DNA from: Geothrix oryzae
GTDB lineage: Bacteria > Acidobacteriota > Holophagae > Holophagales > Holophagaceae
Reading direction: 5' to 3'
Assembly: GCF_030295385.1 (NCBI RefSeq)
Contig: NZ_AP027079.1
Location: 1,488,001 to 1,552,000 of the forward strand
Length of the DNA: 64,000 bases
In this document: piece by piece, positions 45,748 to 59,936 of the stretch
Layout: the number at the start of each line of letters is the position of its first letter
How positions within the stretch are numbered: position 1 is the stretch's first letter
Made by a program: the position numbers and the translations under genes
The notes under the pieces: generated by a model
What the model was told of the DNA's origin: nothing
What the model saw: the letters and a program-made list of their open reading frames with translations, nothing else
Databases searched by the model: none

Positions 45748-45814
45748 GCCTAACGAAGGGAGTTCAGCGGATCCGGCCGCTGGCGGCCGGGTCCGCTGCA
45801 ACGAATGGTTAGGC
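45748..45814 (-). repeat. attC-11 (67 bp, different type)
   Basis: Cores gcctaac and gttaggc, but the inside is unrelated: agcggatccggccg, loop ctgg, then cggccgggtccgct, a compact hairpin. This is the classical short attC form seen in mobile integrons. Confidence 0.88.
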
Positions 45815-46040
45815 AGGGCGAGAAGTCAGTTTGAGAGTGACTCGGCCTGCGAAACCAAAGGTTTGAACGATTGAAAGAACGACTGGAATGGAGAACTGAA
45901 GGCTTTAAACGCTGGTCGTGGACCCAGGTTACCCACGAAGATGGCAGAAACTCGGCCGTTTCTGGGTGGGCCACCGCGAACGGTGTTGAATGGCGGCGCG
46001 AACGGTAACAGCTGACCAGAAGGGCGAAAGAGCTGAGTGG
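45815..46040 (-). other. Cassette without a convincing gene
   Basis: 226 bases between attC-11 and attC-12. Frames are open on the minus strand (including one from GTG 45974 that runs into attC-11), but none has a good start, ribosome site or recognisable protein pattern. It may be a regulatory RNA or promoter cassette, or a dead gene. With its two attC sites it makes the longest gene-free stretch of the array (45726-46178). Confidence 0.6.
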
Positions 46041-46163
46041 GCCTAACGAATGAAGCTAACCGGACCCGCCTGCACCGAGGCGCTGAGCGGAGCCGAGGAA
46101 GCGAGAAGCGAGAGAGAGCGGAAGGCAGTGCAGGCGGGGTCCGAGTTGAGCTAGGGGTTAGGC
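46041..46163 (-). repeat. attC-12
   Basis: 123 bp; C-type arms (ctaaccgg/ccgagttg). Confidence 0.93.
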
Positions 46164-46178
46164 TGACCAGGTTTGCCC

Positions 46179-46490
46179 TCATGGTTTTCGCTCGAATTGG
46201 TGGGAAAGTTCGAGGGAAGAGGCCAATTGGAAGGTGGTTGTTGGCCTGCCCTCGGCGGCCAAGATGTGAACCCCTTCAAGGTCAATCGAAATGACGAATG
46301 CACCAGTGGGAAATGAACACTCCCAAATATGCCCTTCTTCTGTTGGCCAATCCTCTTCGATGGTGAACCCCGGCACATGTGCCTGAAGGATTTTGATCAG
46401 ATCTGGATTTACCTTTGTTTGCTCATCGAGAGCCAGGGCAAGACCTATTCCCTCGGTTCCAAATTTGCTCAGAACTGTGAAGTGGTTCAT
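46179..46490 (-). CDS. Cassette: hypothetical protein
   Basis: 103 residues, soluble, slightly acidic. Segments of note are KVNPDLIKILQAHVPGFTIE and GHIWECSFPTGAFVISIDL. It looks like an alpha/beta domain of unknown family. The ATG lies six bases from the attC-13 core. Confidence 0.55.
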   Translation of the reverse strand: MNHFTVLSKFGTEGIGLALALDEQTKVNPDLIKILQAHVPGFTIEEDWPTEEGHIWECSFPTGAFVISIDLEGVHILAAEGRPTTTFQLASSLELSHQFERKP

Positions 46491-46496
46491 GGGGCG

Positions 46497-46620
46497 GCCT
46501 AACGATGGAAGCTAACCGGCCACGCCTGTACCGAGACGATGAGCGGAGCCGAGGTAGCGAAATGTTGAGAGAGAGCGGAAGGCAATGCAGGCGGGGTCCG
46601 ACTTGAGCGGAGGGTTAGGC
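46497..46620 (-). repeat. attC-13
   Basis: 124 bp; arms ctaaccgg/ccgacttg do not covary (one mismatch). Confidence 0.92.
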
Positions 46621-46971
46621 TTCGTGGATGAATGATAATAATTTGGCACTAGCTACGAGTTTAGACCCTTCTTGAATTCGCCACTCGCGCCCAATAGTTA
46701 GGCATTCCAAGAGACCCTGGACATTCAAAAAGGTGATCCTCAGATCGCGTGAATCGCCTGGATGGACCCACACTCCTTCAGGAACCTCAACCTGGCCAAT
46801 GAAGAAGATCTTATTGTCTGGGGGCCCGAAATTGTGGTTCGGTCTGTACGCCTTCGTGAATGGGCCTTTACGACCACCATTTTCAGTCTTCACAACCTCG
46901 ATTCGGGCTAGAACCTGGATTGGCTCCTCGCCAGCTGGCTCCAGTTGATCGCTGAACATCTCACTGTGCAT
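46615..46971 (-). CDS. Cassette: stand-alone EF-Tu domain III-like protein
   Basis: 118 residues. After a 22-residue lead, the sequence follows the C-terminal beta-barrel of elongation factor Tu step by step: EVVKTENGGRKGPFTKAYRP (EF-Tu has EEGGRHTPFFKGYRPQF), VEVPEGVWVHPGDSRDLRITF (EF-Tu LPEGVEMVMPGDN) and WRIQEGSKLVASAKLLSFI (EF-Tu FAIREGGRTVGAGVV). There is no GTPase domain. In EF-Tu this domain contacts tRNA and EF-Ts. Whether this one binds tRNA, or serves in defence or regulation, is unknown. The TAA stop is the attC-13 core. Confidence 0.75.
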   Translation of the reverse strand: MHSEMFSDQLEPAGEEPIQVLARIEVVKTENGGRKGPFTKAYRPNHNFGPPDNKIFFIGQVEVPEGVWVHPGDSRDLRITFLNVQGLLECLTIGREWRIQEGSKLVASAKLLSFIHEA

Positions 46972-46977
46972 TCAGAA

Positions 46978-47101
46978 GCCTAACGAATGAAGCTAACCGG
47001 ACCCGCCTGCACCGAGGCGCTGAGCGGAGCCGAGGAAGCGGGAAGCTGAGAGAGAGCGAGAGGCAATGCAGGCGGGGTCCGAGTTGAGCGCGGGGTTAGG
47101 C
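46978..47101 (-). repeat. attC-14
   Basis: 124 bp; C-type arms. Confidence 0.93.
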
Positions 47102-47114
47102 CGACGGTCAGAGA

Positions 47115-47522
47115 TCAGAGCCATTCGAAACTGAAATGAGTTGCGGCGATATAGATGAAGCTGTTCCATTCACTCACGAAGAACTGGTACACAGAAGCGT
47201 TTGCTGGAAGGTTTTTCGGTAGTGATTCGGTGCCTTTTGTTACCCCGGGAACGATTTCGGTATCACTGATCCAAAGGCCATCTTTCGATTGGTAGGGATA
47301 GCGCTCATCGGGCGGTTCCATTGTAATAAAGAGAAGCCCTGAAATCAGAAGAGAACCAGGTTTCGAGCTTTCACGCAGTTCGTGCTCGGTTGCATTCGGA
47401 TCGCCAGTGCAGATTTGAACCTGGAAGCGTGCGGTCCTATTCAGATAGTCAATTTCCACCCGCTCGATAGTTGAGTCGTGGAAGGTGCCATGCGGGTGAT
47501 CCAGGAGCTGATCTAAATCCAT
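47115..47522 (-). CDS. Cassette: hypothetical soluble protein
   Basis: 135 residues. It begins MDLDQLLDHPHGTFHDSTIE and continues with a beta-rich stretch (RVEIDYLNRTARFQVQI); the 'HDSTI..(V)EID' start is shared by several small uncharacterised bacterial families. The C-terminus is aromatic (WNSFIYIAATHFSFEWL). ATG seven bases from attC-15. Confidence 0.55.
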   Translation of the reverse strand: MDLDQLLDHPHGTFHDSTIERVEIDYLNRTARFQVQICTGDPNATEHELRESSKPGSLLISGLLFITMEPPDERYPYQSKDGLWISDTEIVPGVTKGTESLPKNLPANASVYQFFVSEWNSFIYIAATHFSFEWL

Positions 47523-47529
47523 GAAGGAG

Positions 47530-47653
47530 GCCTAACGAATGAAGCTAAGCGGCCCTGCCTGCACCGAGGCGATGAGCGGAGCCGAGATAGCGAGATGTTG
47601 AGAGAGAACGGAAGGCAATGCAGGCGGGGTCCGACTTGAGCGGAGGGTTAGGC
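47530..47653 (-). repeat. attC-15
   Basis: 124 bp; covarying G-type arms. Confidence 0.93.
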
Positions 47654-48163
47654 GTGGAGACCATTGTGTGAGTTTGAGGTATTTCGATCATAGATCTTGA
47701 GAAACCCCATCGAAGAATCAGCCTGGGACCAGAGGCCCGTTATGTAATCGAATTCGGCATGAAATGGGGGTAGAAAATCTGGAATGTCTGTGGCGTATTC
47801 ACAATTTCGGCTCAGCATAGCAAGCCAGGCAGGGCTTCCGAGCTGAGAGTAGAGTGTGGTGATTACGTCAGCGAGAGTAACAACGGACAATTGGCCTTCG
47901 CGGTACATCTGATGCAGTAGGACTAGGTGTTTACCAGCGCCTACTGTTGGATCGCCTCCGCCGAGGTAATTGGTCAAGATTCGTTCAGTGACCTTGATAG
48001 CCTCATTCTTGTCGTTGGTGGCGGCAAGAGAGAGAACATCTTGATCCTTGGGCTCAGCGTTCGTACCAATTTGAGCGATAGCCCAGTCAATGCACGCGAG
48101 CGTTGAGCCATTTCCGGCCAGTGCCATTAGGTAGGATTTCTGAAGCCCGTGGATGCCGTTCAT
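47648..48163 (-). CDS. Cassette: hypothetical alpha-helical protein
   Basis: 171 residues, predicted mostly helical and soluble (MNGIHGLQKSYLMALAGNGS..., KNEAIKVTERILTNYL, LSVVTLADVITTLYSQLG). The TAA stop is the attC-15 core, and the ATG is seven bases from the attC-16 core. No family recognised. Confidence 0.55.
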   Translation of the reverse strand: MNGIHGLQKSYLMALAGNGSTLACIDWAIAQIGTNAEPKDQDVLSLAATNDKNEAIKVTERILTNYLGGGDPTVGAGKHLVLLHQMYREGQLSVVTLADVITTLYSQLGSPAWLAMLSRNCEYATDIPDFLPPFHAEFDYITGLWSQADSSMGFLKIYDRNTSNSHNGLHA

Positions 48164-48170
48164 GGAAAAC

Positions 48171-48294
48171 GCCTAACGAATGAAGCTAACCGGACCCGCC
48201 TGCACCGAGGCGCTGAGCGGAGCCGAGGTAGCGATATGTTGAGAGAGAGCTGAAGGCAATGCAGGCGGGGTCCGAGTTGAGCTAAGGGTTAGGC
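48171..48294 (-). repeat. attC-16
   Basis: 124 bp; C-type arms. Confidence 0.93.
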
Positions 48295-48296
48295 CT

Positions 48297-48521
48297 TCAC
48301 TGGGGATGATCATATTTGCCCTCACGCTTGTGCCAGTTCAAACCGATGGCAACTCCAAGAACCACCGACGCCAACAAGACACAAGTGCCAATGGTTTTAT
48401 TTGGGATAAACCAATAGGCAACCCCGCCGAGAACTGTCGTGAGGAAGAGCGATACCAGGACTCGAATTGGTGTTGGCCCTGTGACGATCAATTCGACGAG
48501 AAATGCGATGAAGTCCAGCAG
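48297..48521 (-). CDS. Cassette: two-helix membrane protein, paralogue of 58621-58842
   Basis: 74 residues assuming a CTG start at 48521, which has AGGAGG five bases upstream; no ATG, GTG or TTG is suitably placed. The start is chosen because the protein then aligns end to end with the 73-residue cassette protein at 58621: LLDFIAFLVEL against MWDLVAFLIDF, VLGGVAYWFIPNKTIG against ILGGIAYAVIPNKTVG. Helices cover most of the chain; the tail is basic/His-rich. Confidence 0.55.
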   Translation of the reverse strand: MLDFIAFLVELIVTGPTPIRVLVSLFLTTVLGGVAYWFIPNKTIGTCVLLASVVLGVAIGLNWHKREGKYDHPQ

Positions 48522-48544
48522 AATTGCCTCCTCGTGCTTTGAAG

Positions 48545-48668
48545 GCCTAACGGAAGAAGCTAACCGGCCACGCCTGCACCGAGACGATGAGCGAAGGCGA
48601 GATAGCAAAATGTTGAGAGAGAACGGAAGGCAATGCAGGCGGGGTCAGAGTTGAGCCAAAGGTTAGGC
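48545..48668 (-). repeat. attC-17
   Basis: 124 bp; C-type left arm, right arm tcagagttg. Confidence 0.9.
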
Positions 48669-48686
48669 CGACACGGGCATTCTTTC

Positions 48687-48953
48687 TCATGATTGCGCTC
48701 TCTGCCAGAGCCATATAAGAACCAATATACCGATGAGCCCAAGTTGCAGGCGATCGAGCCAGGGTGGATTGTCATCGAATTCGGTATCAGAACCCCAACT
48801 GAGTAGTAATCGAAATGGAATGAAAGTCCAGAAAAGTGCAGAAAGAAAACCACGAGTCTTGATCATGAAGAAAAATGAAAGCACAAAAGTGAGTGCAGTG
48901 CAGGCGAACACCACAGTGTAGAGCGTTGAGATTGTGTTCGAGGCCTGGTCCAT
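48687..48953 (-). CDS. Cassette: small membrane protein
   Basis: 88 residues with about three membrane helices (LYTVVFACTALTFVLSFFF, LSALFWTFIPFRLLLSW, LGLIGILVLIWLW). ATG eight bases from attC-18. No family recognised. Confidence 0.58.
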   Translation of the reverse strand: MDQASNTISTLYTVVFACTALTFVLSFFFMIKTRGFLSALFWTFIPFRLLLSWGSDTEFDDNPPWLDRLQLGLIGILVLIWLWQRAQS

Positions 48954-48961
48954 TTGGTGCG

Positions 48962-49085
48962 GCCTAACGAATGAAGCTAACCGGACCCGCCTGCGCCGAG
49001 GCGCTGAACGGAGCCGAGGAAGCGGGAAGCTGAGAGAGAGCAGGAGGTAATGCAGGCGGGGTCCGAGTTGAGCTAACGGTTAGGC
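48962..49085 (-). repeat. attC-18
   Basis: 124 bp; C-type arms. Confidence 0.93.
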
Positions 49086-49091
49086 CGACAG

Positions 49092-49325
49092 TCATGATTT
49101 CACTGGAGCGGTGAGCACTTCCCAGAACAAAAAAGCGGAGACGCAAAGAATTACGATGCCGATATGAACCCGCGTGCGGTCTGAACATTGGGTGCTTGGT
49201 TTGAGCGCGTAGAAATTTGCGAGACGATGCGGAGCAGAGATGTGAAGGCCCGCGAATGCCAACGCAACAACCGCTACGATAGTGGCGACGATGCGATCGG
49301 TTTGGCTAAGTGGTGCAAATTCCAT
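49092..49325 (-). CDS. Cassette: small membrane protein
   Basis: 77 residues with two membrane helices (RIVATIVAVVALAFAGLHI and VHIGIVILCVSAFLFWEVL) joined by a polar loop. ATG seven bases from attC-19. No family recognised. Confidence 0.58.
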   Translation of the reverse strand: MEFAPLSQTDRIVATIVAVVALAFAGLHISAPHRLANFYALKPSTQCSDRTRVHIGIVILCVSAFLFWEVLTAPVKS

Positions 49326-49332
49326 GGGTGAG

Positions 49333-49456
49333 GCCTAACGAATGAAGCTAACCGGCCCCGCCTGCACCGAGACGCTGAGCGGAGCCGAGGAAGCGAGAAG
49401 TTGAGAGAGAGCGAAAGGCAATGCAGGCGGGGTCCGAGTTGAGCTAAGGGTTAGGC
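49333..49456 (-). repeat. attC-19
   Basis: 124 bp; C-type arms. Confidence 0.93.
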
Positions 49457-49774
49457 GTCGGTTCCGGTTTTTGAATTGAGCCTACGCAAGCGCAAGTCTG
49501 AGGCAATGCCTGAGGCAACCACGCCTGCGATTGTCCATGGAATAACGCAGGCCAGACCCCAGGCGGAGTACCCAGGCGATGAATAACCACCGAACCAAAC
49601 CGGCGACCAATAGATAAGACAAGACAGGGCGAAAGGCGCAACATACAGGATATCTACCTGGATTCGTGGTGTTTTGACCCAAGAAGTGGCCAACGTGACC
49701 ACGGCAGAGAGCGCACCAACGACAACGAGCCCTAATGGCAGGGAGATCGGTTGTTTGGGCCAGAGCGCGTACAT
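49451..49774 (-). CDS. Cassette: three-helix membrane protein
   Basis: 107 residues with three membrane helices (LPLGLVVVGALSAVVTLA, ILYVAPFALSCLIYWSPV, LACVIPWTIAGVVASGI) and a basic tail (DLRLRRLNSK). The TAA stop is the attC-19 core. No family recognised. Confidence 0.58.
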   Translation of the reverse strand: MYALWPKQPISLPLGLVVVGALSAVVTLATSWVKTPRIQVDILYVAPFALSCLIYWSPVWFGGYSSPGYSAWGLACVIPWTIAGVVASGIASDLRLRRLNSKTGTDA

Positions 49775-49781
49775 GCGAGAC

Positions 49782-49905
49782 GCCTAACGAATGAAGCTGA
49801 CCGGACCCGCCTGCGCCGAGGCGCTGAGCGAAGTCGAGGAAGCGGGAAGCTGAGAGAGAACGGAAGGCAATGCAGGCGGGGTCCGAGTTGAGCGAGAGGT
49901 TAGGC
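49782..49905 (-). repeat. attC-20
   Basis: 124 bp; left arm ctgaccgg, right arm ccgagttg. Confidence 0.92.
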
Positions 49906-50233
49906 GCTGCACTTGGGCTGGAGTTGGAGCAGCTGGGGAATGAGGAAATATTGGGACCCAGTACCAAAGTAGGTAGATGAACGCTATGACAACTGGAATA
50001 TGCAGAAGGATGGCGAAGGTTCGATTGAATTCGTTTCGAAACAAAATCGTTAGCGTTGGTAACCCGATCCAGGTGACCAACCCGATGCCCCAGGCAAGTC
50101 CGACACCCTCCCAGTATTCATCGCGGCTCGGATTCAGCGCGCTCGAGTAGTAGAGGTAGGTGTAATAGAAAACCAGCCCAAGCATTGCCCAACCCCAAAG
50201 GGAAAGCAGGAGCGCAATGATTTTGCGGGCCAT
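49784..50233 (-). CDS. Cassette: membrane protein with attC-encoded tail
   Basis: 149 residues. Three membrane helices (IIALLLSLWGWAMLGLVFYY, LAWGIGLVTWIGLPTLTIL, ILLHIPVVIAFIYLLWYW). Residues from about 110 onward (RSTRTPPALPSVL...) are translated from attC-20 and end at a stop in its far core. The tail resembles that of the cassette proteins at 43726 and 58027 only because all are attC sequence. Confidence 0.55.
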   Translation of the reverse strand: MARKIIALLLSLWGWAMLGLVFYYTYLYYSSALNPSRDEYWEGVGLAWGIGLVTWIGLPTLTILFRNEFNRTFAILLHIPVVIAFIYLLWYWVPIFPHSPAAPTPAQVQRLTSRSTRTPPALPSVLSQLPASSTSLSASAQAGPVSFIR

Positions 50234-50239
50234 GGTGAC

Positions 50240-50348
50240 GCCTAACGAATGAAGCTAACCGGCCCTATTGCTGCGGGGACACGGACGCTGAGTTATTTGA
50301 GGACACTAGCGCGCAGCGATAGGGTCCGAGTTGAGCGGAAGGTTAGGC
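50240..50348 (-). repeat. attC-21 (different loop)
   Basis: 109 bp. Outer arms are standard C-type, but the inner part (ctattgctgcggggacacgg ... gcgcagcgataggg) is unrelated to the family loop. Confidence 0.88.
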
Positions 50349-50355
50349 GCGCGGG

Positions 50356-50949
50356 TTAATGTCTTTTCGAGGTCATTCGTATTGATTGGGCAATAGCAAT
50401 TGCAGTTGATTTGAGCTGAGGCAAATTCTGAATTGGATTCGACTCGGCAACACCGATGAGGTTGAAAATGATTTGACGATCATTGAATTGCCTAACGAGA
50501 GTTATACAGAGTACAGGCATTGGAGCACCAGAATATTTAATGCTGGTCTGATAGGTAATCAAGACAGCTTGTTCTGCACCTGAAAGCGAAACTGTGTCGG
50601 CCGAATATTCTGACTTATTGGATGGATTGCCGTGCTTGAGATGGAGGCGGGTCGTAAGAGCTTTAATAAATCTATCTGCCTCTTGTGCAGGTTCGGGAGC
50701 GGGCCGAAGCCCAGCTTCGAGAATTGTCCAAGTGCCAACAGCGAGTTCACAACTTCCTAGAAAAGTAACCCCATCGAGGCTTGGGGTGCTCATTTCACCC
50801 ATTTCAAATTCCTGCCCCTTTGATATTGGTGCCTCAAAGGTAATCAAGTCAGATTTGTATGGAATCTCGACAGCGGTGCAAATAGAAGTTGGGCTTGGCT
50901 GAACCATGCAGATGAGAGCGGCAGGAATTGTCCGAGCAATGGTGAGCAT
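50356..50949 (-). CDS. Cassette: exported hypothetical protein
   Basis: 197 residues, one of the larger cassette products. The N-terminus MLTIARTIPAALICMVQPSP is probably a signal sequence. The rest is a mixed alpha/beta domain (TWTILEAGLRPAPEPAQEAD, VLITYQTSIKYSGAPMPVLC, IALIA-like C-terminal helix SIRMTSK). ATG five bases from attC-22. No family recognised. Confidence 0.55.
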   Translation of the reverse strand: MLTIARTIPAALICMVQPSPTSICTAVEIPYKSDLITFEAPISKGQEFEMGEMSTPSLDGVTFLGSCELAVGTWTILEAGLRPAPEPAQEADRFIKALTTRLHLKHGNPSNKSEYSADTVSLSGAEQAVLITYQTSIKYSGAPMPVLCITLVRQFNDRQIIFNLIGVAESNPIQNLPQLKSTAIAIAQSIRMTSKRH

Positions 50950-50954
50950 TGAGC

Positions 50955-51078
50955 GCCTAACGAATGAAGCTAACCGGCCCCACCTGCACCGAGGCGACGA
51001 GCGGAGCCGAGGAAGCGGGAAGCTGAGAGAGAGCGGAAGACAATGCAGGCGGGGTCCGAGTTGAGCTAGGGGTTAGGC
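50955..51078 (-). repeat. attC-22
   Basis: 124 bp; C-type arms. Confidence 0.93.
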
Positions 51079-51097
51079 CGACCTGACGCGATTGCAA

Positions 51098-51322
51098 TTA
51101 GTGGATGCGAGCAAGCAGCGAATCTAGCTTATGAGATAGCCCCTCAATTTGTTCGCCATTCTGTTTTGCAAGGAAGCCGGCATCAAAATAATTGGTGATG
51201 CCCACCACGCAACCGCACAATACACAATTCACGGATACAACTCTGTATGCAGCGCCAGAGACATTGATCTCATTCATCTCGAACGATTGAGATGAACACT
51301 TAGGGCACGATGGAATCGCCAT
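51098..51322 (-). CDS. Cassette: small zinc-ribbon-like protein
   Basis: 74 residues. Two CXXC knuckles (IPSCPKCSS and VNCVLCGCVV) are spaced as in a zinc ribbon; a helical tail follows (EQIEGLSHKLDSLLARIH). The fold is likely; the target, nucleic acid or protein, is not known. 26 bases lie between its start and attC-23. Confidence 0.7.
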   Translation of the reverse strand: MAIPSCPKCSSQSFEMNEINVSGAAYRVVSVNCVLCGCVVGITNYFDAGFLAKQNGEQIEGLSHKLDSLLARIH

Positions 51323-51348
51323 GACGGCTCCTGTGTGGTTGTGAGGCG

Positions 51349-51472
51349 GCCTAACGAATGAAGCTAAGCGGCCACGCCTGCGCCGAGGCGACGAGCGGAG
51401 CCGAGATAGCGAAATGATGAGAGAGAACGGAAGGCAATGCAGGCGGGGTCCGACTTGAGCGCAAGGTTAGAC
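51349..51472 (-). repeat. attC-23
   Basis: 124 bp; covarying G-type arms; right core gttagac. Confidence 0.92.
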
Positions 51473-51520
51473 CGCTGGGATGGGGATTCATTTTGCGCTG
51501 ATTGATTGAACCACATGCGA

Positions 51521-51862
51521 TTAGGGCGCATGCATTTTGAGTTTTCGTTTCTGACGCCGATGCCAAATAGTCGCGGGTATAGCAAACCACCAAATCGTTC
51601 CTACGACTGCCTCTGCGAATGGAATAGGCAGCACGAAATAGATAATAGAAATGGGAAAGTCTAGGACCCAGAGTGGCCAGTAATCGAACTGCCACATTGC
51701 ATCATGGTTTTGATGAGCATGGATTAACCTGAATACATAGAAACGTAGGGCAGCCAAAATACAGCCCACTATCCATAGCGCCATTGGCATCTTGCCGAGT
51801 TTGCGGATGTCTGGACGAAATTCCTGCCACAGGCTTCGACCAGGTTCGTTCTCTGATGCCAT
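51521..51862 (-). CDS. Cassette: membrane protein
   Basis: 113 residues from ATG 51862 (an upstream ATG at 51874 would sit against the attC core). A polar start is followed by about three membrane helices (ALWIVGCILAALRFYVF, WVLDFPISIIYFVLPIPF, AVVGTIWWFAIPATIW) and a very basic end (RRQKRKLK). No family recognised. Confidence 0.58.
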   Translation of the reverse strand: MASENEPGRSLWQEFRPDIRKLGKMPMALWIVGCILAALRFYVFRLIHAHQNHDAMWQFDYWPLWVLDFPISIIYFVLPIPFAEAVVGTIWWFAIPATIWHRRQKRKLKMHAP

Positions 51863-51875
51863 GAGGCCTCGCAAG

Positions 51876-51999
51876 GTCTAACGAAAGAAGCTAACCGGAC
51901 CCGCCTGCGCCGAGGCGATGAGCGGAGCCGAGGAAGCAAGAAGTTGAGAGAGAGCGGAAGGCAATGCAGGCGGGGTCCGAGTTGAGCTAGGGGTTAGGC
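51876..51999 (-). repeat. attC-24
   Basis: 124 bp; left core gtctaac; C-type arms. Confidence 0.92.
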
Positions 52000-52512
52000 T
52001 GCCGGTGATACTTGCTTCGGTTTTTGTAGCTCCTTGAATTCAAGGGCGACACCAAAGAGTTGTGTTGTGTGAGTATTTTCGCGGGTGAGCTTATCAGATT
52101 TGATTAACAGGCGATCTGAGGATATCCACTGAAGCTCGGCAATGGGGGACTCGGAATCCTGTACGACCGAGAACGCCAAGCCTGATTGATTTTGGCCGGC
52201 AAGGAACCTGATCTCTGAGCCCTTTGGAGCGAGTTGGACCTCTTGCCATACGACCGCACCACCGAAGCCGGAACCGCCGATGACCCTGACAAGCCTTGCT
52301 TCCAGGCGGCCATCAGGTGAAGTGGACCTGGCGATTACCTGTATTTCTGGAATGTTTTGCTGCCCGAAGGTAGCCCTGAAAAATCTATCGATTGCATAGT
52401 AAGCGCCAGTGATGACTACAAGGCAAATGACAGTGAAGATCCCAACCCACCTGAGAAGAGGGCGCGATCGCTTCGATGGTGTGGCTGCGGGCGAATCCAT
52501 TTCTGGGGTCAT
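51994..52512 (-). CDS. Cassette: single-pass membrane protein
   Basis: 172 residues. A basic N-terminus and one membrane helix (VGIFTVICLVVITGAYYAI) anchor a beta-rich extracytoplasmic domain (DGRLEARLVRVIGGSGFGGA, LQWISSDRLLIKSDKL). The TAA stop is the attC-24 core. No family recognised. Confidence 0.58.
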   Translation of the reverse strand: MTPEMDSPAATPSKRSRPLLRWVGIFTVICLVVITGAYYAIDRFFRATFGQQNIPEIQVIARSTSPDGRLEARLVRVIGGSGFGGAVVWQEVQLAPKGSEIRFLAGQNQSGLAFSVVQDSESPIAELQWISSDRLLIKSDKLTRENTHTTQLFGVALEFKELQKPKQVSPAA

Positions 52513-52518
52513 TGAGCA

Positions 52519-52642
52519 GCCTAACGAAAACGGCTAACCGGCCGCGCCTGCATCGAGATGATGAGCGAAGCCGAGGAAGCAGGAAGCTGAGAGAGAGCGG
52601 AAGACAATGCAGGCGGGGTCCGAGTTGAGCTAAAGGTTAGGC
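52519..52642 (-). repeat. attC-25
   Basis: 124 bp; C-type arms. Confidence 0.92.
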
Positions 52643-52644
52643 GC

Positions 52645-52938
52645 CTAACTGGGCTTCTTTTTGTTTTGTAGGCGTTGGCGAAGAGTCATGATGCGTGTTT
52701 TGCGAATGGCACTGGGAACATGGATTGTCTTGAGCTTGTTCAGCGTTAGGTCATCTTCATTACCCGAGGAGAGATCCCGGTCGATAGTTTGCTTTACATT
52801 CCGGCGTTCTGCACGGTTGACTCGAGCTTTCTTCCTCGGCCAATTCTTCCGGAATGCGTGAGGCGCTTCGCACCAAGGGCGAATCTCACATTCGTAATCC
52901 TCTTCCTTTTTCTCTTGCGGAGTTTTGCGACGAGTCAA
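52645..52938 (-). CDS. Cassette: small highly basic protein
   Basis: 97 residues, about a third Lys/Arg, with acidic patches (KKEEDYECEIRPWCEAPHAF, KKARVNRAERRNVKQ, MTLRQRLQNKKK). The charge suggests nucleic-acid or ribosome contact, but no domain was recognised. 32 bases to the attC-26 core. Confidence 0.55.
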   Translation of the reverse strand: MTRRKTPQEKKEEDYECEIRPWCEAPHAFRKNWPRKKARVNRAERRNVKQTIDRDLSSGNEDDLTLNKLKTIHVPSAIRKTRIMTLRQRLQNKKKPS

Positions 52939-52970
52939 TCGGACACCTGGCGAATGATGTTGGTGATGGC

Positions 52971-53094
52971 GCCTAACGAATGAAGCTAACCGGACCCGCC
53001 TTCGCCGAAGCGCTGAGCGGAGCCGAGGAAGCGAGATGCTGAGAGAGAGCGAAAGGCAATGCAGGCGGGGTCCGAGTTGAGCTAAGGGTTAGAC
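52971..53094 (-). repeat. attC-26
   Basis: 124 bp; C-type arms; right core gttagac. Confidence 0.92.
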
Positions 53095-53111
53095 CGCATG
53101 GTTACTGACAA

Positions 53112-53582
53112 TCAGAGCTTATAGGTCTCGAGAAACTTGCCTACGAGGTTTCCGTCTTCGGTGCCATCAGGTTTGGAGATAGTCCAATCCCAGATTTCTG
53201 CCTCCGCGATTGAAAATCTCTGACCTGCTTTGTACCCAGACACGGTAGAAATTTCGTTCGCGATCAGGCCAGTGATGATGCCGTTCTCGATTTTCTGAAC
53301 TTCCACGAAAGTGATCTCGCGTTTTCCTCGCATGTCAGCCAGTTCGACGGTCACAAAAAAAACATGCTTGGGTGGAAGCCCTTTGAGGTAATTCGCCTTG
53401 GCCGTTGGCCATGTCTTTCTGGCTTGAGCCATGTAAGGCGCCACCGCCTTCAATAGTCTCTGATGCTGGTCCCCAGTGAACCCGACAGGCTTATCTTCTG
53501 GGGCGTTTGGCGCAAGTGTCGACTGGGTGTAAGCAACTGAGGGACAAGCCAGGACGAGGGCCATTAGGAACACTCTAAGCAT
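53112..53582 (-). CDS. Cassette: exported DUF2314-like protein
   Basis: 156 residues. Signal peptide MLRVFLMALVLACPSVAYTQ. The second half matches the DUF2314 pattern: VTVELADMRGKREITFVEVQ, then GIITGLIANEI, GYKAGQRFSIAEAEIWDWTI and NLVGKFLETYKL. DUF2314 proteins are widespread and uncharacterised. Well-formed start with 20 bases to the attC-27 core. Confidence 0.72.
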   Translation of the reverse strand: MLRVFLMALVLACPSVAYTQSTLAPNAPEDKPVGFTGDQHQRLLKAVAPYMAQARKTWPTAKANYLKGLPPKHVFFVTVELADMRGKREITFVEVQKIENGIITGLIANEISTVSGYKAGQRFSIAEAEIWDWTISKPDGTEDGNLVGKFLETYKL

Positions 53583-53602
53583 GCTTTGACTCCTTGGGTG
53601 CG

Positions 53603-53726
53603 GCCTAACGAAAGAAGCTAACCGGCCCCGCCTACACCGAGGCGCGGAACGGAGCCGAGGAAGCGGGACGAAGAGAAGGAACGGAAGACAATGCAGGCGG
53701 GGTCCGAGTTGAGCTAAGGGTTAGGT
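53603..53726 (-). repeat. attC-27
   Basis: 124 bp; C-type arms; right core gttaggt. Confidence 0.92.
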
Positions 53727-53737
53727 GCTTTGATTGA

Positions 53738-54118
53738 TTAGGTTTTCGATTTTCTCGATATTAACTTACCTGTTCGATATTGAAGGACAATCTGCAAGGA
53801 AGCTTGGACTTTCTCTTCTTTGCTGTCGCGTAGCCGCCGGTAATACAACTTCCCCTTTGAGGTTTGGGCGATGACATTTACCTTAGCCTCGGTGTAGGCG
53901 TTGTAATCTGAAATACAAGTGTTTGTAAGTGCAAGTGCGATTGTGCTCGCATCGGAAACCTTGTCGTCAATAGTTGGGACAAGTTCGATGGCATGATCGA
54001 AAAATGAATTCATTGCCCGTGTTGCATCAGCCTCATATTGAATGCGGTGTTCCGCCGATGGCCCAACGCATGAGATGCAGGCGACTACGGAGATTCCATA
54101 GATAGCGGTGATTCTCAT
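53738..54118 (-). CDS. Cassette: putative lipoprotein
   Basis: 126 residues. The start MRITAIYGISVVAC ends in a lipobox-like VVAC, so Cys14 may be lipidated. The remainder is soluble and helical with a basic C-terminus (YRTGKLISRKSKT). GGAG lies upstream of ATG 54118. No family recognised. Confidence 0.58.
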   Translation of the reverse strand: MRITAIYGISVVACISCVGPSAEHRIQYEADATRAMNSFFDHAIELVPTIDDKVSDASTIALALTNTCISDYNAYTEAKVNVIAQTSKGKLYYRRLRDSKEEKVQASLQIVLQYRTGKLISRKSKT

Positions 54119-54151
54119 CGGAGTCCTCCAGTCATTACAAGGGTGTGTAGC

Positions 54152-54275
54152 GCCTAACGAATGAAGCTAAGCGGCCGCGCCTATACCGAGACGATGAGCG
54201 GAGCCGGGATAGCAAAATGCTGAGAGAGAGCGGAAGGCAATGCAGGCGGGGTCCGACTTGAGCGAGGGGTTAGGC
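54152..54275 (-). repeat. attC-28
   Basis: 124 bp; covarying G-type arms. Confidence 0.93.
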
Positions 54276-54315
54276 GTGTCGATACCATCAAATCAGGTAA
54301 GGGTTTTGAGCAAGA

Positions 54316-54756
54316 TCAAGGAAATTCTTGAGTGAGTAACGCTAACGTGGTTTGGTAATCGGACTCAGTTTGACAGTCTTCTGGAATTAGATATTGGGGG
54401 TAACGAACTCCCGCTTCGTATTCCACTGTTAAGCCACCATGTACGGGGACAAGAACCTTCTGCCCGGATGGAAGCTCTTCTAATTGGACAGCAATTCGAT
54501 GCCAACGCTCGGTTTCAATAAAACGGATTCGCCAATGGAAAATAACTTGAGAATTGCTATCATCAGTTTTGAACCTGAGGCCTTTGTCGGAAGCGAACTT
54601 GGAAACTATGGAAAGCCAAGACGGGTTCTTAGGTGAGGACCTTAGAGGCTCGTGTGCCTCTAATGAAGCCTGCTCCAATGAAGCAATAGGGAGAGCCGCC
54701 CAGCCATCTCGTTCGAGATTTGCGAGGAGTGCGGACTGAAGAGTTTGCCAAGCCAT
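54316..54756 (-). CDS. Cassette: hypothetical soluble protein
   Basis: 146 residues, soluble. It begins MAWQTLQSALLANLERDGWA and has a central beta sheet (VIFHWRIRFIETERWHRIAV). Both flanks are unusually long (54 bases upstream, 40 downstream), and GGAG is present before the ATG, so it has its own ribosome site. No family recognised. Confidence 0.58.
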   Translation of the reverse strand: MAWQTLQSALLANLERDGWAALPIASLEQASLEAHEPLRSSPKNPSWLSIVSKFASDKGLRFKTDDSNSQVIFHWRIRFIETERWHRIAVQLEELPSGQKVLVPVHGGLTVEYEAGVRYPQYLIPEDCQTESDYQTTLALLTQEFP

Positions 54757-54810
54757 GTGCGTGACTCCTGGAGAGAAGGAAGGCTGATCGTTGGGCTTTC
54801 GGTCCGTGAC

Positions 54811-54934
54811 GCCTAACGAATGAAGCTAACCGGCCCCGCCTGCACCGAGGCGCTGAGCGGAGCCGAGGAAGCGAGAAGTTGAGAGAGAGCGGAAGGCAAT
54901 GCAGGCGGGGCCCGAGTTGAGCTAAGGGTTAGGC
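54811..54934 (-). repeat. attC-29
   Basis: 124 bp; C-type arms. Confidence 0.93.
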
Positions 54935-54964
54935 TGTAGCCTGATTGCTAAAGTGTGATGCCGA

Positions 54965-55174
54965 CTATGACCGGAAAAGCCGAAGAATAATAACGACAAA
55001 GCAGACTGTGGCAACGAACCAACACATATAAGCAGCGTTGATGGCATCTTGAGTGCTTTTGCCACCAAGCCAGTAGGAGCTTGTTCGCTTGCGCCAGATC
55101 AGAAGGCCGAACCCGCCGGATAAAAGCGTGAGAAGCAGGACTACCCAAAGGCGGGCTTCTTGGGGTTCGTTCAT
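54965..55174 (-). CDS. Cassette: small two-helix membrane protein
   Basis: 69 residues with two membrane helices (LWVVLLLTLLSGGFGLLIW and MCWFVATVCFVVIILRLF) and a basic loop (RKRTSSYWLGGKS). ATG six bases from the attC-30 core. A second open frame overlaps it but lacks these features. Confidence 0.58.
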   Translation of the reverse strand: MNEPQEARLWVVLLLTLLSGGFGLLIWRKRTSSYWLGGKSTQDAINAAYMCWFVATVCFVVIILRLFRS

Positions 55175-55180
55175 CTACGG

Positions 55181-55303
55181 CCTAACGAAAGAAGCTAACC
55201 GGACCCGCCTGCACCGAAGCGACGAGCGAAGCCGAGGAAGCGAGAAGCTGAGAGAGAGAAGAAGGCAATGCAGGCGGGGTCCGGGTTGAGCTAGGGGTTA
55301 GGC
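55181..55303 (-). repeat. attC-30
   Basis: 123 bp; left arm ctaaccgg, right arm ccgggttg. Confidence 0.92.
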
Positions 55304-55315
55304 GCCTAGTGAATG

Positions 55316-55531
55316 TCATTCGATGCTCTTTATCCAAAGAATTGCTGAATCTACATCAATGAGAAAGCGCTGGGCGAACTCGCGAGGCAAAGATTCAGCG
55401 CCCTCCACTCCAGAATCAGGAGTTTCACCCATGGCCTTCTGGTAAGCATGATAAGCAGAGATCCCCTCTCCATTCTTGAGGTACCGTAGCGCCCAAATGG
55501 CTAGTTCTTTGTGTTTCCGTTGGTTCGACAA
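55316..55531 (-). CDS. Cassette: small helical protein
   Basis: 71 residues, soluble and helical (KHKELAIWALRYLKNGEGIS, REFAQRFLIDVDSAILWIKS). No family recognised. 15 bases to the attC-31 core. Confidence 0.55.
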   Translation of the reverse strand: MSNQRKHKELAIWALRYLKNGEGISAYHAYQKAMGETPDSGVEGAESLPREFAQRFLIDVDSAILWIKSIE

Positions 55532-55546
55532 TGTGGCACTCCGTGC

Positions 55547-55670
55547 GCCTAACGAATGAAGCTAACCGGCCCCGCCTGCGCCGAGGCGATGAGCGGAGCC
55601 GAGGAAGCGGGACGAAGAGAAGGAGCGGAGGACAATGCAGGCGGGGTCCGAGTTGAGCTGGGGGTTAGGC
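55547..55670 (-). repeat. attC-31
   Basis: 124 bp; C-type arms; loop carries gacgaagagaaggagcgg in place of the usual gagaga run. Confidence 0.92.
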
Positions 55671-55682
55671 AGCCTAGGAAGA

Positions 55683-55865
55683 TCATTCTTCGGGTAGTTC
55701 TCGTATCGCCCGCTGAATATCTTGTTCAGCGTCGTCGAGTTCTCGCATTGCCCGGCGGATCTGGTATTCACCATTTGCCCCGGAATCGCTGCGGGCTTGC
55801 TGTAGCGCGCGCTTAGCATCGTCTATTGCGTTCAGGGCGTTGCGGAGCTTTGACTTTGATGACAT
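55683..55865 (-). CDS. Cassette: short coiled-coil protein
   Basis: 60 residues, nearly all one amphipathic helix (LRNALNAIDDAKRALQQARS, RRAMRELDDAEQDIQRAI). Heptad spacing suggests a coiled coil. No membrane segment. 17 bases to the attC-32 core. Confidence 0.55.
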   Translation of the reverse strand: MSSKSKLRNALNAIDDAKRALQQARSDSGANGEYQIRRAMRELDDAEQDIQRAIRELPEE

Positions 55866-55882
55866 AGATACCTCGGTGGGCG

Positions 55883-56006
55883 GCCTAACGAGTGGAGCTA
55901 ACCGGACCCGCCTGCGCCGAGGCGCTGAGCGAAGCCGAGAAAGCGGAATGTTGAGAGAGAGAGGAAGGCAATGCAGGCGGGGTCCGAGTTGAGCTGAAGG
56001 TTAGGC
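55883..56006 (-). repeat. attC-32
   Basis: 124 bp; C-type arms. Confidence 0.92.
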
Positions 56007-56020
56007 CAATTGGGTGTGGG

Positions 56021-56554
56021 TCAGGGATATTGCTTATCAGGTTGAAGATGGGCAGATGGACGACCTGAAAGTGTAAAAGAATTTCCATAAATACAGCTAT
56101 AATTTAATATAAATTCAATTGATTTAAGTTTCGTGTTAAAAACTATTGTGTCGAAATTTTCAACAGATCGAATATCTAGCAATTGATTTTCTTTACCTGG
56201 GGCTAAAATGCTGTCTGTATCGAATAGGCCGTAAGCATGGTCAATTTTTGTACTGCCTTCGAACAGGTAATTGTATAATTTATGTAATGATGGAATGCTA
56301 TGCAAGTCTATTGTTTCATCATTAAATTTGGCAGATAGTTTGTTGAGATTTGCAGGCCCCAATCCAAAATTATGAATCACGATTCGGAATATAGTGTCTT
56401 CCGTTCTGTGAAAGGCGAAGCCAACAAAGGGTCGAACAGATAGTTGATTATGTTTTCTTGTAAGGTAACCTTGCCAAACAGATGTACCAAATGCGCTCAG
56501 AGCAATAACAGCTGATGCAAGAGCAATGTAATCCGTTGCAGTTAGGTTTGGCAT
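56021..56554 (-). CDS. Cassette: single-pass membrane protein, very AT-rich
   Basis: 177 residues. One N-terminal helix (YIALASAVIALSAFGTSVW) followed by RKHNQLSVRPFVGF and a soluble domain (FRIVIHNFGLGPANLNKLSA). The 'NxLSVRPxV' start after a single helix is a common layout in uncharacterised bacterial proteins. Its coding sequence is among the most AT-rich of the array, a sign of a foreign source. Confidence 0.62.
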   Translation of the reverse strand: MPNLTATDYIALASAVIALSAFGTSVWQGYLTRKHNQLSVRPFVGFAFHRTEDTIFRIVIHNFGLGPANLNKLSAKFNDETIDLHSIPSLHKLYNYLFEGSTKIDHAYGLFDTDSILAPGKENQLLDIRSVENFDTIVFNTKLKSIEFILNYSCIYGNSFTLSGRPSAHLQPDKQYP

Positions 56555-56577
56555 TGCTACCTCTTGGTTGGTCTGGG

Positions 56578-56701
56578 GCCTAACGAATGAAGCTAACCGG
56601 ACCCGCCTGCACCGAGGTAATGAGCGGAGCCGAGGAAGCGAGAAGTTGAGAGAGAACGAAAGACAATGCAGGCGGGGTCCGAGTTGAGCTGAAGGTTAGG
56701 C
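56578..56701 (-). repeat. attC-33
   Basis: 124 bp; C-type arms. Confidence 0.92.
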
Positions 56702-56721
56702 CGCTGCAGGTGGGAATTGAA

Positions 56722-57123
56722 CTATTTTTGCACGATTGGATCACTGGTCTTTTCTAGCTTCCACGCGAATATTCTCAGAGTTCCCGAAGGTTCTAACTCC
56801 GCTTCTGGCAACACAGGAAGATTTGTAGGCATAATGTGAATTTCAATCTTGAAATCGAGACTTCCAGGAATATGGCTTTCGAATTGCCATTTTGAAAATA
56901 CTCGTTGAGCGAATTTAAGATCGCGTTCGATGTTATTTGAATTGCTGAGTCTTATGCCTGTGACTAGGCCAGATTCGTCAATATCCAATGAAGAAACGAA
57001 ACAATAATTCTCATTGGCAACTCGATAAATAGGAGGAACCACCGGAATCGTGGCTTTTTTAAGAGCTTGTGCAAACGATGGCATCGAAAGCAGAAGAGCT
57101 AGAAGGAAGAGTTTGATCTTCAT
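56722..57123 (-). CDS. Cassette: exported protein with TonB-C-like segment
   Basis: 133 residues from ATG 57123 (57132 is an alternative). Signal peptide MKIKLFLLALLLSMPSFAQA. The stretch CFVSSLDIDESGLVTGIRLS ... FAQRVFSKWQFES recalls the C-terminal domain of TonB-type energy transducers, but the match is short. AT-rich. Confidence 0.58.
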   Translation of the reverse strand: MKIKLFLLALLLSMPSFAQALKKATIPVVPPIYRVANENYCFVSSLDIDESGLVTGIRLSNSNNIERDLKFAQRVFSKWQFESHIPGSLDFKIEIHIMPTNLPVLPEAELEPSGTLRIFAWKLEKTSDPIVQK

Positions 57124-57145
57124 GTTTAGCACCTTCAGAGAAGCG

Positions 57146-57269
57146 GCCTAACGAATGAAGCTAAGCGGCCCCGCCTGCATCGAGGCGATGGGCGGAGCTG
57201 AGATAGCTAAATGCTGAGAGAGAGCGGAAGACAATGCAGGCGGGGTCCGACTTGAGCGGAGGGTTAGGC
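57146..57269 (-). repeat. attC-34
   Basis: 124 bp; covarying G-type arms. Confidence 0.93.
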
Positions 57270-57650
57270 TGCAGACGGTTCATTGGAATCCCTGCGCCTG
57301 GGGAAGAAACCAACTGCGAAGAGCAAAGTATGACCAAGTGTGACGAGAATGATGGTGCCCCATTGGATTGGTGCTATCACATACTGCAAGCCATACATTT
57401 CTAGGGCGAAGTCTGCCAGGGTTGCGCCTGCAACTAGCCCTAGATATTCGTTCCGAGACGGCGGGCGTTTCTCCCTGCGAAGAAAAAAGGCGTTGATGAG
57501 AAGAACCGAGCCAACGATGACCAGGATGTTGCTCATTGAAGGTGGTGTGATCTCTAGAGTTTGAATGACAAGCCCAACAATAAACATAAGAACGAAGTAC
57601 AAAACAGCGAAGAGGCCGATGTATCTTAAGGTCAAGAAGCGCTTGTTCAC
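57264..57650 (-). CDS. Cassette: four-helix membrane protein, ABZJ_00895-like
   Basis: 128 residues with four membrane helices. The inter-helix loop FLRREKRPPSRNEYLGLVAG is like the 'F.R..gR.pt..E' loop of the ABZJ_00895 family, known from many cassette arrays and chromosomes and uncharacterised. The TAA stop is the attC-34 core; the ATG is eight bases from the attC-35 core. Confidence 0.62.
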   Translation of the reverse strand: MNKRFLTLRYIGLFAVLYFVLMFIVGLVIQTLEITPPSMSNILVIVGSVLLINAFFLRREKRPPSRNEYLGLVAGATLADFALEMYGLQYVIAPIQWGTIILVTLGHTLLFAVGFFPRRRDSNEPSAA

Positions 57651-57658
57651 GATGAGTG

Positions 57659-57782
57659 GCCTAACGAATGGGGCTAACCGGCCCCACCTGCGCCGAGGCG
57701 ACGAGCGGAGCCGAGGAAGCGAGAAGCTGAGAGAGAGCGGAGGAAAATGCAGGCGGGGTCCGAGTTGAGCTAAGGGTTAGGC
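57659..57782 (-). repeat. attC-35
   Basis: 124 bp; C-type arms; left end reads gcctaacgaatgggg. Confidence 0.93.
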
Positions 57783-58021
57783 GGCTCGCTGAATACGCCG
57801 AGTTTGACAGCCGTAATGATCATTGAGAATCCAAGAACAAACACGGTGAGGAGCGAAAGCCAATCCTTGCGATTGAAATAGAAGGGCCAAAATATGGTTT
57901 CCCATCGAATGGAAAACCATCCGAAGCCCAGTCGCTTCTTGAATCGAATGTCGACCCAAGTCCAGCCCACGATGACAGTGAGAAGGCCGACCAGCATGAG
58001 AGGTTGAGCGAGGGGATGCAT
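57770..58021 (-). CDS. Cassette: small membrane protein
   Basis: 83 residues with two membrane helices (PLMLVGLLTVIVGWTWV and WLSLLTVFVLGFSMIITAV). Its last four residues and stop lie inside attC-35. The ATG is only three bases from the attC-36 core. No family recognised. Confidence 0.58.
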   Translation of the reverse strand: MHPLAQPLMLVGLLTVIVGWTWVDIRFKKRLGFGWFSIRWETIFWPFYFNRKDWLSLLTVFVLGFSMIITAVKLGVFSEPPNP

Positions 58022-58024
58022 GGC

Positions 58025-58148
58025 GCCTAACGAATGAAGCTAACCGGACCCGCCTGCGCCGAGGCGACAAACGGAGCCGAGGAAGCGGGAAGCTGAAAGA
58101 GAGCGGAAGGCGATGCAGGCGGGGTCCGAGTTGAGCGGAGGGTTAGGC
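58025..58148 (-). repeat. attC-36
   Basis: 124 bp; C-type arms. Confidence 0.93.
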
Positions 58149-58488
58149 AGGCGTATTCGGAGCTAATGACTCGGAAAGCTCTGTGGTTGTCATAGAGGTT
58201 AGTGGCGACCCAGAGTGAGATGAGAATCAACCACACAACTGAAAGAAGTAGCTTGTCGGAGGCGGCTCGTTTTCTGAAGAGGATGAAGTAAAGAGCAACA
58301 AGATCGAGAATTGCGATTACCGCATTAAATGGAATCAGAATGAGTAACCAGTAGAACGCATCCCCTGGCCCGCCTGGTTGCCCTTCAGTGCCCGGCTTGA
58401 CCCAAAGGGAAGAGGCTAGCCAGAGGTATAGAGGAATTCCCGCGATGTTGACCGCAATCCAGATCCAACGCTTTGCGGGGAGTTTCAT
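58027..58488 (-). CDS. Cassette: three-helix membrane protein with attC-encoded tail
   Basis: 153 residues. Three membrane helices (WIWIAVNIAGIPLYLWLA, FYWLLILIPFNAVIAILDLV, LLLSVVWLILISLWVA). Residues from about 114 onward (LRSTRTPPASPSA...) are translated from attC-36. ATG six bases from attC-37. Confidence 0.58.
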   Translation of the reverse strand: MKLPAKRWIWIAVNIAGIPLYLWLASSLWVKPGTEGQPGGPGDAFYWLLILIPFNAVIAILDLVALYFILFRKRAASDKLLLSVVWLILISLWVATNLYDNHRAFRVISSEYACLTLRSTRTPPASPSALFQLPASSAPFVASAQAGPVSFIR

Positions 58489-58494
58489 CAGACT

Positions 58495-58618
58495 GCCTAA
58501 CGAATGAAGCTAAGCGGCCACGCCTGCACCGAGACGATGAGTGGAGCCGAGATAGCAAAATGTTGAGAGAGAGCAAAAGGCAATGCAGGCGGGGTCCGAC
58601 TTGAGCGAGAGGTTAGGC
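58495..58618 (-). repeat. attC-37 (nearest the attI-like end)
   Basis: 124 bp; covarying G-type arms. Confidence 0.93.
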
Positions 58619-58620: not shown

Positions 58621-58842
58621 TCACGCTTGCTGATCATGATTTTGGTCCTTGAAGTGCCACCAGACCGCAATTGCCAGGCCAGCGATGATGATTAGCCCAA
58701 AGGCGTACGAGCCAACCGTTTTGTTGGGAATGACCGCATAGGCGATTCCACCAAGGATTGCGGATGGAATGAGGACGAGAACCGATTTCCCAGGTGTGGA
58801 TGAAGCCACAAAATCTATCAGGAAGGCCACGAGGTCCCACAT
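58621..58842 (-). CDS. First cassette: two-helix membrane protein, paralogue of 48297-48521
   Basis: 73 residues: MWDLVAFLIDFVASSTPGKS, then ILGGIAYAVIPNKTVGSYAF and a His/Asp-rich tail (FKDQNHDQQA). It aligns over its length with the cassette protein at 48297. ATG 58842 has GGAGG 8 bases upstream, so it has its own ribosome site. It lies next to the attI-like boundary and would be the most recent insertion. Confidence 0.65.
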   Translation of the reverse strand: MWDLVAFLIDFVASSTPGKSVLVLIPSAILGGIAYAVIPNKTVGSYAFGLIIIAGLAIAVWWHFKDQNHDQQA

Positions 58843-58867: not shown

Positions 58868-58930
58868 GCCTAACTTTAAATTGGACGGTGGGGACGAAGG
58901 GATTCGTAGTTCACCTAATCCGGTTTGAGA
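58868..58930 (-). other. attI-like boundary of the cassette array
   Basis: On the minus strand the flank reads ...gtccaatttaaaGTTAGGC and then the first cassette. The last core is gttaggc, but upstream of it there is no attC arm or stem; the AT-rich aatttaaa before the core is like attI sites (attI1 ends aaaacaaagttaggc). A second core-like word, attaggtg, is at 58911-58918. The flank to 59084 has no gene. Confidence 0.5.
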
Positions 58931-59084
58931 GGGGCGTAAGTGCTGATTTTACCGTGGGGCTGCTGGCTGGGGCGATTTGAATGGGCAGACCGGAAATGGG
59001 CGGATGGCGGCGGTTTCAGTCACTGAGACCGATCGAATTGGAGGCAGGCCTCCCTTGGAGGGTGGACTCCGTTCGCGGGGGGGT

Positions 59085-59936
59085 TTAACGCCGTTTGGGT
59101 GCGGGCAGGGCGGCGTAGCGTTCGGCTTGGCGCAGGTTCTCGGTGAGGACGGGGTCGCCGGGGCGGAGGGCGAGGGCGGCGCGGAAGTCATCGCGGCTCT
59201 CGGGGTAGCGCTTCAGCTCGAAGCGGGCACGGCCGCGGTTGAAGAGGGCTTCGAGCTGGTTGGGCTCCAGGGCCAGGGCCCTGTCCAGGGCCTCGCAGGC
59301 CTCGGCCCAGGCCTTCTTTTCGTTGAGGCAGCGGCCCAGGTTGTTCCAGGCGTGGGCGATCGCCGGGTCCTTCGCCACGGCCGCGCGGAGGATCGGCTCG
59401 GCCTCGGCTAGGCGGTCCTGGCGCGCCAGGGCCTCGCCTTTCCAGGCCTGGCCCATGGCGTCCCCCGGGCGGGCCTCGAGCAGCGCATCGGCGCAGGTTT
59501 GGAGGGTGGTCCAGTCCTGGGCCAGGCGGGCCTCGGCACAGGCGTTGGGAAAGCCGTCGGGATAGCCGAGGCGGCCGTTCTCGGCATGGGCGGCCGCGGC
59601 GTCCCCATGGCGCCCCAACTGGCTCAGGGCCTGGGCGCGGTAGAGGCGGTAGGTGGCCAGGCGGGGGCCGGATTTGGCTTCCAGCTGAGGCTGCAGGGCC
59701 TCGCAGACCGCCGCGAGCCGCTCCCAGCGCCGGCTCCGGTTGAGGGCCTGGATCCACAGCTCGTAGTGGGCGCCCCGGGTGGCGGGCGACACCGTCTCGA
59801 ACCAATCCGCGAGGCCGCCCCAGTCCTTGGCCCGGGCCAGGGCCTCCGCCGGGGCGGGCAGGGGGGCGGCCAAGCCCTGGGATTGGACCTGGGACTGGAC
59901 CTGGGCGACAGGAAACAGGAGGAGCAGAGGGATCAT
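59085..59936 (-). CDS. Exported TPR-repeat protein
   Basis: 283 residues with a signal peptide (MIPLLLLFPVAQVQS) and a small QVQS duplication. About five or six tetratricopeptide units follow, the clearest being AIAHAWNNLGRCLNEKKAWA, EACEALDRALALEPNQLEAL and YPESRDDFRAALALRPGDPV. TPRs mediate protein contacts; the partner is unknown. This backbone gene occupies the place where an integrase gene would be expected. Confidence 0.85.
   Translation of the reverse strand: MIPLLLLFPVAQVQSQVQSQGLAAPLPAPAEALARAKDWGGLADWFETVSPATRGAHYELWIQALNRSRRWERLAAVCEALQPQLEAKSGPRLATYRLYRAQALSQLGRHGDAAAAHAENGRLGYPDGFPNACAEARLAQDWTTLQTCADALLEARPGDAMGQAWKGEALARQDRLAEAEPILRAAVAKDPAIAHAWNNLGRCLNEKKAWAEACEALDRALALEPNQLEALFNRGRARFELKRYPESRDDFRAALALRPGDPVLTENLRQAERYAALPAPKRR

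Follow-up and report, generated by a model that had tools for sequence, protein, structure and literature searches.

An integrase-less cassette array of Geothrix oryzae headed by a gene-less attI unit that may be a mobile cassette

Cassettes in which a part of attI replaces attC have been described from class 1 and class 2 integrons, and IntI1 both excises and inserts these deltaattI-type gene cassettes (PMC12901181). In Xanthomonas, cassette arrays located away from the intI locus (CALINs) are frequent, and their mobilisation in trans is possible (PMC12444791). Insertion of cassettes at chromosomal attG sites is attributed to Loot et al. 2024 as cited in PMC12901181 and PMC12444791, and cassettes without a gene that provide a promoter are known from the superintegrons of Vibrio (PMC11014356). 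How arrays without an integrase originate and whether they continue to grow is unsettled, and they are often read as the remains of dead integrons. The Geothrix array described here looks alive and served from afar, because the attI unit at its head has relatives in cassette position and because its proximal cassettes differ between close relatives. A limited literature search returned no paper on Geothrix integrons and none using the term orphan attI.

The array and its attI end

The chromosome of Geothrix oryzae (genome G000) consists of one contig of 3.27 Mb, and the window, as we call the whole stretch of 64,000 nucleotides that was analysed, comprises its bases 1488001-1552000. A profile built from the window's own attC sites identifies a cassette array with 35 attC at window positions 39968-58618 (minus strand). 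With at least two attC sites and no neighbouring intI this array is a CALIN; of the parts of a complete integron it has the attI at its head and lacks the intI beside it. The genome-wide integrase search found a single full and intact intI in the chromosome, at bases 581571-582515, which scores above the curated cut-off and is free of stops. It adjoins an acyltransferase gene, as does intI in at least ten other genomes, and its linked array is found at about 561-581 kb. The window array at 1.53-1.55 Mb is therefore 0.97 Mb away from the only integrase gene, and the initial annotation was right in stating that the integrase is missing at the junction. The IntI proteins of Geothrix have a conserved N-terminal extension (NRQTGxxR) ahead of the usual IntI start (L001:1438-1500), and the DNA encoding this extension may have a second role in regulation or binding.

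The left end of the insertion is the distal core ATTAGGC (39968-39974, minus strand), which matches the junction core in genome G007. The distal attC sites (39968-43855) are more diverged than the proximal ones and partly broken, which resembles an old array end, and one of the array's cassettes (41756-42502) encodes a methyltransferase-like protein. At the other end, the attC profile places the last attC at 58495-58618 (minus strand), next to the ORF of cassette 1 (73 residues, 58621-58842, minus strand), which is unlike the first cassettes of genomes G007 and G017. The leading core of cassette 1 is GTTAGGC at 58868-58874 (minus strand), located by sequence and by a pattern scan, and this core is also the putative crossover site of the attI. 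It is preceded on the minus strand by ...CCGTCCAATTTAAA, and the window sequence thus bears out the aatttaaa reported at this place.

A profile built solely from 19 intI-linked attI sites of Geothrix has a single match in the 64-kb window, an attI-like site at 58868-58925 on the minus strand (E=2.4e-12). This site is composed of the core, an inverted box GTCCAAT, and an upstream direct ATTAGG-like repeat, a layout similar to that of attI1. In addition, 25 of 26 bases are identical to the attI beside the sole intI of G000 (E=1.4e-4 over 3.27 Mb), and the same 26-base motif is kept next to intI in other Geothrix. Because of this identity to intI-linked attI sites and the single match of the profile, the right-end core is, judged from its sequence, an attI by descent and more than a short core, in agreement with the attI-like end proposed earlier. 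An attC-like fold is absent from the 123 nucleotides to the right of the core (z of +0.4 compared to -3.3 for two attC sites of the array), and the attC profile finds no attC to the right of the 58868 core in G000, G007, or G017, so that the reported absence of an attC arm also stands. A truncated array running on rightward, for which further attC sites in relatives would have spoken, is ruled out by the same result in the three genomes; G007 and G017 have the same attI block against the same TPR gene instead. Likewise ruled out is a simple copy of the chromosome's own intI-linked attI, because the close identity ends after 26 bp. In G027 and G010, the similarity of the attI sites extends beyond this point into the adjoining sequence.

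A recurrent unit of 222 bp

The attI is the right end of a unit of 222 bp (58868-59089, minus strand), of which the window contains a complete but decayed copy. The unit family was found by searching 47 Geothrix genomes with window positions 58868-59010. Ten near-full copies are present in seven genomes and share 86-98% mutual identity. The window copy, which is 71-72% identical to the cassette-like copies, was held out from a profile built from ten array-internal copies of other genomes, and aligns to this profile at 59088-58869 over model positions 2-221 of 222 (E=5.3e-37). In the alignment, the units are 220-222 bp long and have constant ends, the left one being GTTAGGC CGCCCAACCAGCGGAGTACGC and the right one an attI, and they are arranged in the order left core, conserved tail, probable remnant of an intI 5' end, leader, and attI. 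An attC immediately precedes six of the ten array-internal copies; three come right after the attI at the intI locus and occupy the position of the first cassette, and the remaining one follows a diverged copy of the unit. The sequence following the copies varies almost everywhere, with different cassettes coming next, and genome G046 contains three copies whose 3' parts agree completely for at least 111 bp before they continue into different sequence. The attI end is retained in all copies. A DNA-level search of 30 other genomes of the family did not find the unit.

The unit family has no conserved ORF, and no convincing gene is present at 58875-59084 of the window, which is crossed by chance ORFs only. 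The initial annotation had described 210 bases without an ORF at this place; a convincing gene is indeed absent, but the stretch is not blank, being part of the recurrent and conserved unit. An Rfam search gave no match. The unit is not a hidden attC either, because its fold is no better than that of shuffled sequences (z of -0.5 compared to -3.3) and it does not match the attC profile. Thus, it is ORF-less like a promoter cassette but does not end in an attC, and it has attI in place of attC at its 3' end like a deltaattI-type cassette but no ORF. Probably, it is a gene-less cassette with a full attI at its 3' end in place of an attC. The TPR array of G007 (L107:5084-5523) contains two tandem attI units sharing a core, of which one is diverged (67%) and the other near-intact, and similar tandem heads are also found in G014 (L208) and G018 (L210).

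When translated in the orientation of intI, the middle part of the unit yields NGQTGKPRMKRVLEQL..., which compares to NRQTGEGRI...PRLLDQLRE in IntI. A profile of IntI N-termini ranks the sense frames of the unit family first, and the translation of the window copy (NGQTGNGRM..., 58980-59019, plus strand, the orientation expected of intI) matches with E=0.0015. The unit therefore looks like an attI with its leader and what is left of the 5' end of intI, for which the evidence is modest but consistent. Diverged copies carrying the tail are present in G014, G018, and G032. Since neither G014 nor G032 carries an array at the TPR gene, the unit predates the insertion seen in the window. An origin from DNA downstream of the TPR gene is ruled out by these distant copies of the tail and because the unit is unlike the array-free flank.

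The leader might in addition contain a cassette promoter. A TAAAAT (58946-58951 in the window, minus strand), possibly a -10 element, is conserved at the matching place in most copies, 83-85 nucleotides before the unit end and accompanied by a weak -35. The start implied by this element is about 65 nucleotides from the core, and for Vibrio cholerae PMC3948777 mentions a cassette mRNA start 65 bp upstream of attI. A scan of the window with the sigma-70 consensus passes no promoter. It could also be supposed that the unit serves mainly as a promoter cassette, in which the attI-like end is left over from its ancestry and has ceased to recombine. The conserved TAAAAT with its weak -35 in most copies and the gene-less Vibrio cassettes with promoter activity (PMC11014356) would be in accordance with this, but the window has no consensus promoter, and all copies have retained the attI end and are followed by different cassettes. 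This explanation is therefore very improbable.

The insertion at the TPR gene and how it arose

The unit abuts a TPR gene (59085-59936, minus strand; Pfam TPR), which has orthologues across the genus and is the native neighbour of the insertion on the chromosome. In the window copy, the left core is GTTAAAC (59083-59089, minus strand) and contains the TPR stop codon (59085-59087). The corresponding cores are ATTAGGC in G007 and CTTAGAC in G017, and in G009, which has no array, DUF1801 follows a TPR gene with GTTAGGC at its end; in G001 and G005 the stop codon lies in GCTAGGC. The native neighbour on the far side is the DUF1801 gene (39468-39887, minus strand), which adjoins the TPR gene in array-free relatives. 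The gene order in the relatives is TPR, DUF1801, aldolase, and MtnA, or TPR, aldolase, and MtnA, and according to this synteny the arrays have been inserted between TPR and DUF1801. The distal junction core is ATTAGGC in both G000 and G007, and the stretch downstream of it has no clear match to the array-free flank. The insertion may be of the attG type; the array-free G009 carries GTTAGGC at the stop codon of its TPR gene, and cores are present at both junctions.

The TPR gene had been described as standing in the place of the integrase, and a search of related strains for an intI at this junction had been suggested. None of the 18 Geothrix orthologues of the TPR gene, of which 15 are without array, has an intI beside it, and among the neighbours of intI in 17 further genomes of the family there is no TPR or SPFH gene. 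Because the gene order is native in the relatives and because of the missing intI beside these 18 orthologues, the TPR gene did not take the place of intI. It reads toward the array and in the same direction as the cassettes; its orientation is opposite only to the one that an intI would have had here.

The insertion at the TPR gene is common to G000, G007 (an incomplete MAG, 64% complete), and G017, with arrays of about 19 kb, 7 kb, and 20 kb, respectively. The first cassette is different in each of these genomes, as expected if the site still accepts cassettes with the integrase acting in trans. G000 and G007 have only the distal-most cassette in common and differ in the proximal ones. The comparison of the cassettes suggests that new cassettes are found at the attI end and old ones at the far end. 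Two stretches of the window array (57146-57781 and 55547-56005, both minus strand) are 95% and 97% identical, respectively, to parts of the intI-linked array of G000. Among the three TPR copies of the unit, attI and leader (139 bp) are 88-93% identical and the tail 59-67%. The 4-fold sites of the TPR genes are 89-93% identical and thus as conserved as the attI part, so that it is the difference between attI and leader on one side and the tail on the other that speaks for selection. Judged from this difference, selection seems to preserve attI and leader, whereas the tail is decaying. Such a pattern fits a site that has been maintained and on which an integrase would act in trans.

Heads with an attI but without intI are found at about a dozen places in Geothrix, with different upstream sequences. 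G017, a genome of two contigs, has attI heads at four arrays, of which one head is weak, and an intI at one. Besides the window, G000 has such heads at 2.64 Mb and, in decayed form, at 3.244 Mb. The former is a second integrase-less array with three attC and the attI head GTCCAATTCAAAGTTAGGC (G000:C1:2640048-2640124; L224:4052-4124), and the latter is an attI-like head with a single attC beside an M28-like peptidase gene (L045:1332-1381). At this peptidase locus, intI adjoins the gene in G029 and G020, and only an attI head is found in G002, G003, G009, G046, and G017. Here, intI has either been lost in place or gained. The heads at the peptidase locus do not have the tail of the unit.

For the TPR locus, the explanation that we consider probable is the insertion of an attI cassette at the TPR stop codon, which then seeded the array. 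Recombination by IntI between the attI of the unit and the core preceding the unit would release a circle, and in the ancestor of G000, G007, and G017 such a circle would have been inserted by recombination at a GTTAGGC located at the stop codon of the TPR gene. The planted attI would subsequently have gained cassettes by IntI supplied in trans, which would result in an array with its own attI but without integrase gene. The decay of the window copy with its left core GTTAAAC counts against this model, as does the peptidase locus, where an in-place loss of intI could leave an attI head, too. A complete integron might thus have been present at the TPR gene, of which after deletion of intI only the 5' end and the attI were left, and the cassette-like copies would later have been cut from such a remnant. 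The probable intI 5' remnant in the unit and the five genomes with only an attI head at the peptidase locus, compared to the two with intI, are consistent with this history. Against it speak the 18 TPR orthologues without intI and the 17 other genomes of the family, in which neither TPR nor SPFH genes adjoin intI. Moreover, the supposed truncation shares its end and its tail with copies inside arrays, and the tail is present in distant species without an array at TPR and absent from the heads of the peptidase locus. Because the ends and the tail match those of the cassette-like copies and because no state with intI has been seen, the insertion of a ready-made unit is preferred, and the loss of intI in situ is rather unlikely.

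The attI and cassettes at the TPR gene could also be the copy of a segment of another array, made independently of IntI by homologous recombination or transposition. The stretches common to the window array and the intI-linked array could be seen as traces of such a process, and attC sites are repeats that could recombine. But both junctions are on core sequences, which only IntI-type recombination predicts, the identity with the intI-linked attI of the same chromosome is limited to 26 bp, and no transposase was noticed at the junction. We regard this explanation as improbable. The insertion of an attI cassette can be extended to the whole genus, and we rate the chances of this extension as about even: a mobile gene-less attI cassette might be a portable founder of arrays across Geothrix, moved by IntI into arrays and to core-like chromosomal sites. 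Each landing would create a new attI, and a single integrase would feed several arrays in trans. If true, an integron would consist of one integrase and several docking sites, of which the docking site itself is mobile, and the portable attI cassette would provide a way in which integrase-less arrays come into being.

Comparison with described systems

The Geothrix unit resembles the deltaattI-type gene cassettes (PMC12901181) in having attI sequence for attC at its 3' end and in being located in cassette position behind an attI or attC. In contrast to these, which carry an ORF and mostly 14-18 nucleotides of attI, it contains no gene and about 58 bp of attI. It also differs from them in its leader and intI remnant, in its many copies across the genus, and in heading arrays without intI. 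With the promoter cassettes of Vibrio (PMC11014356) it has in common that it is a short, ORF-less cassette in a chromosomal array, but it ends in an attI and not in an attC, and its promoter is only putative.

The integration at the TPR gene would be like the attG insertion ascribed to Loot et al. 2024 in the two papers citing it, having presumably taken place at a genomic core-like site outside integrons. It would be unlike that insertion in that an attI unit was planted, presumably by IntI, so that the site can grow into an array. Similar to the CALINs of Xanthomonas (PMC12444791), the window array lies away from the intI locus at a chromosomal position that is conserved among relatives. CALINs are defined regardless of attI, whereas the window array has kept an attI head and has its turnover at the attI end.
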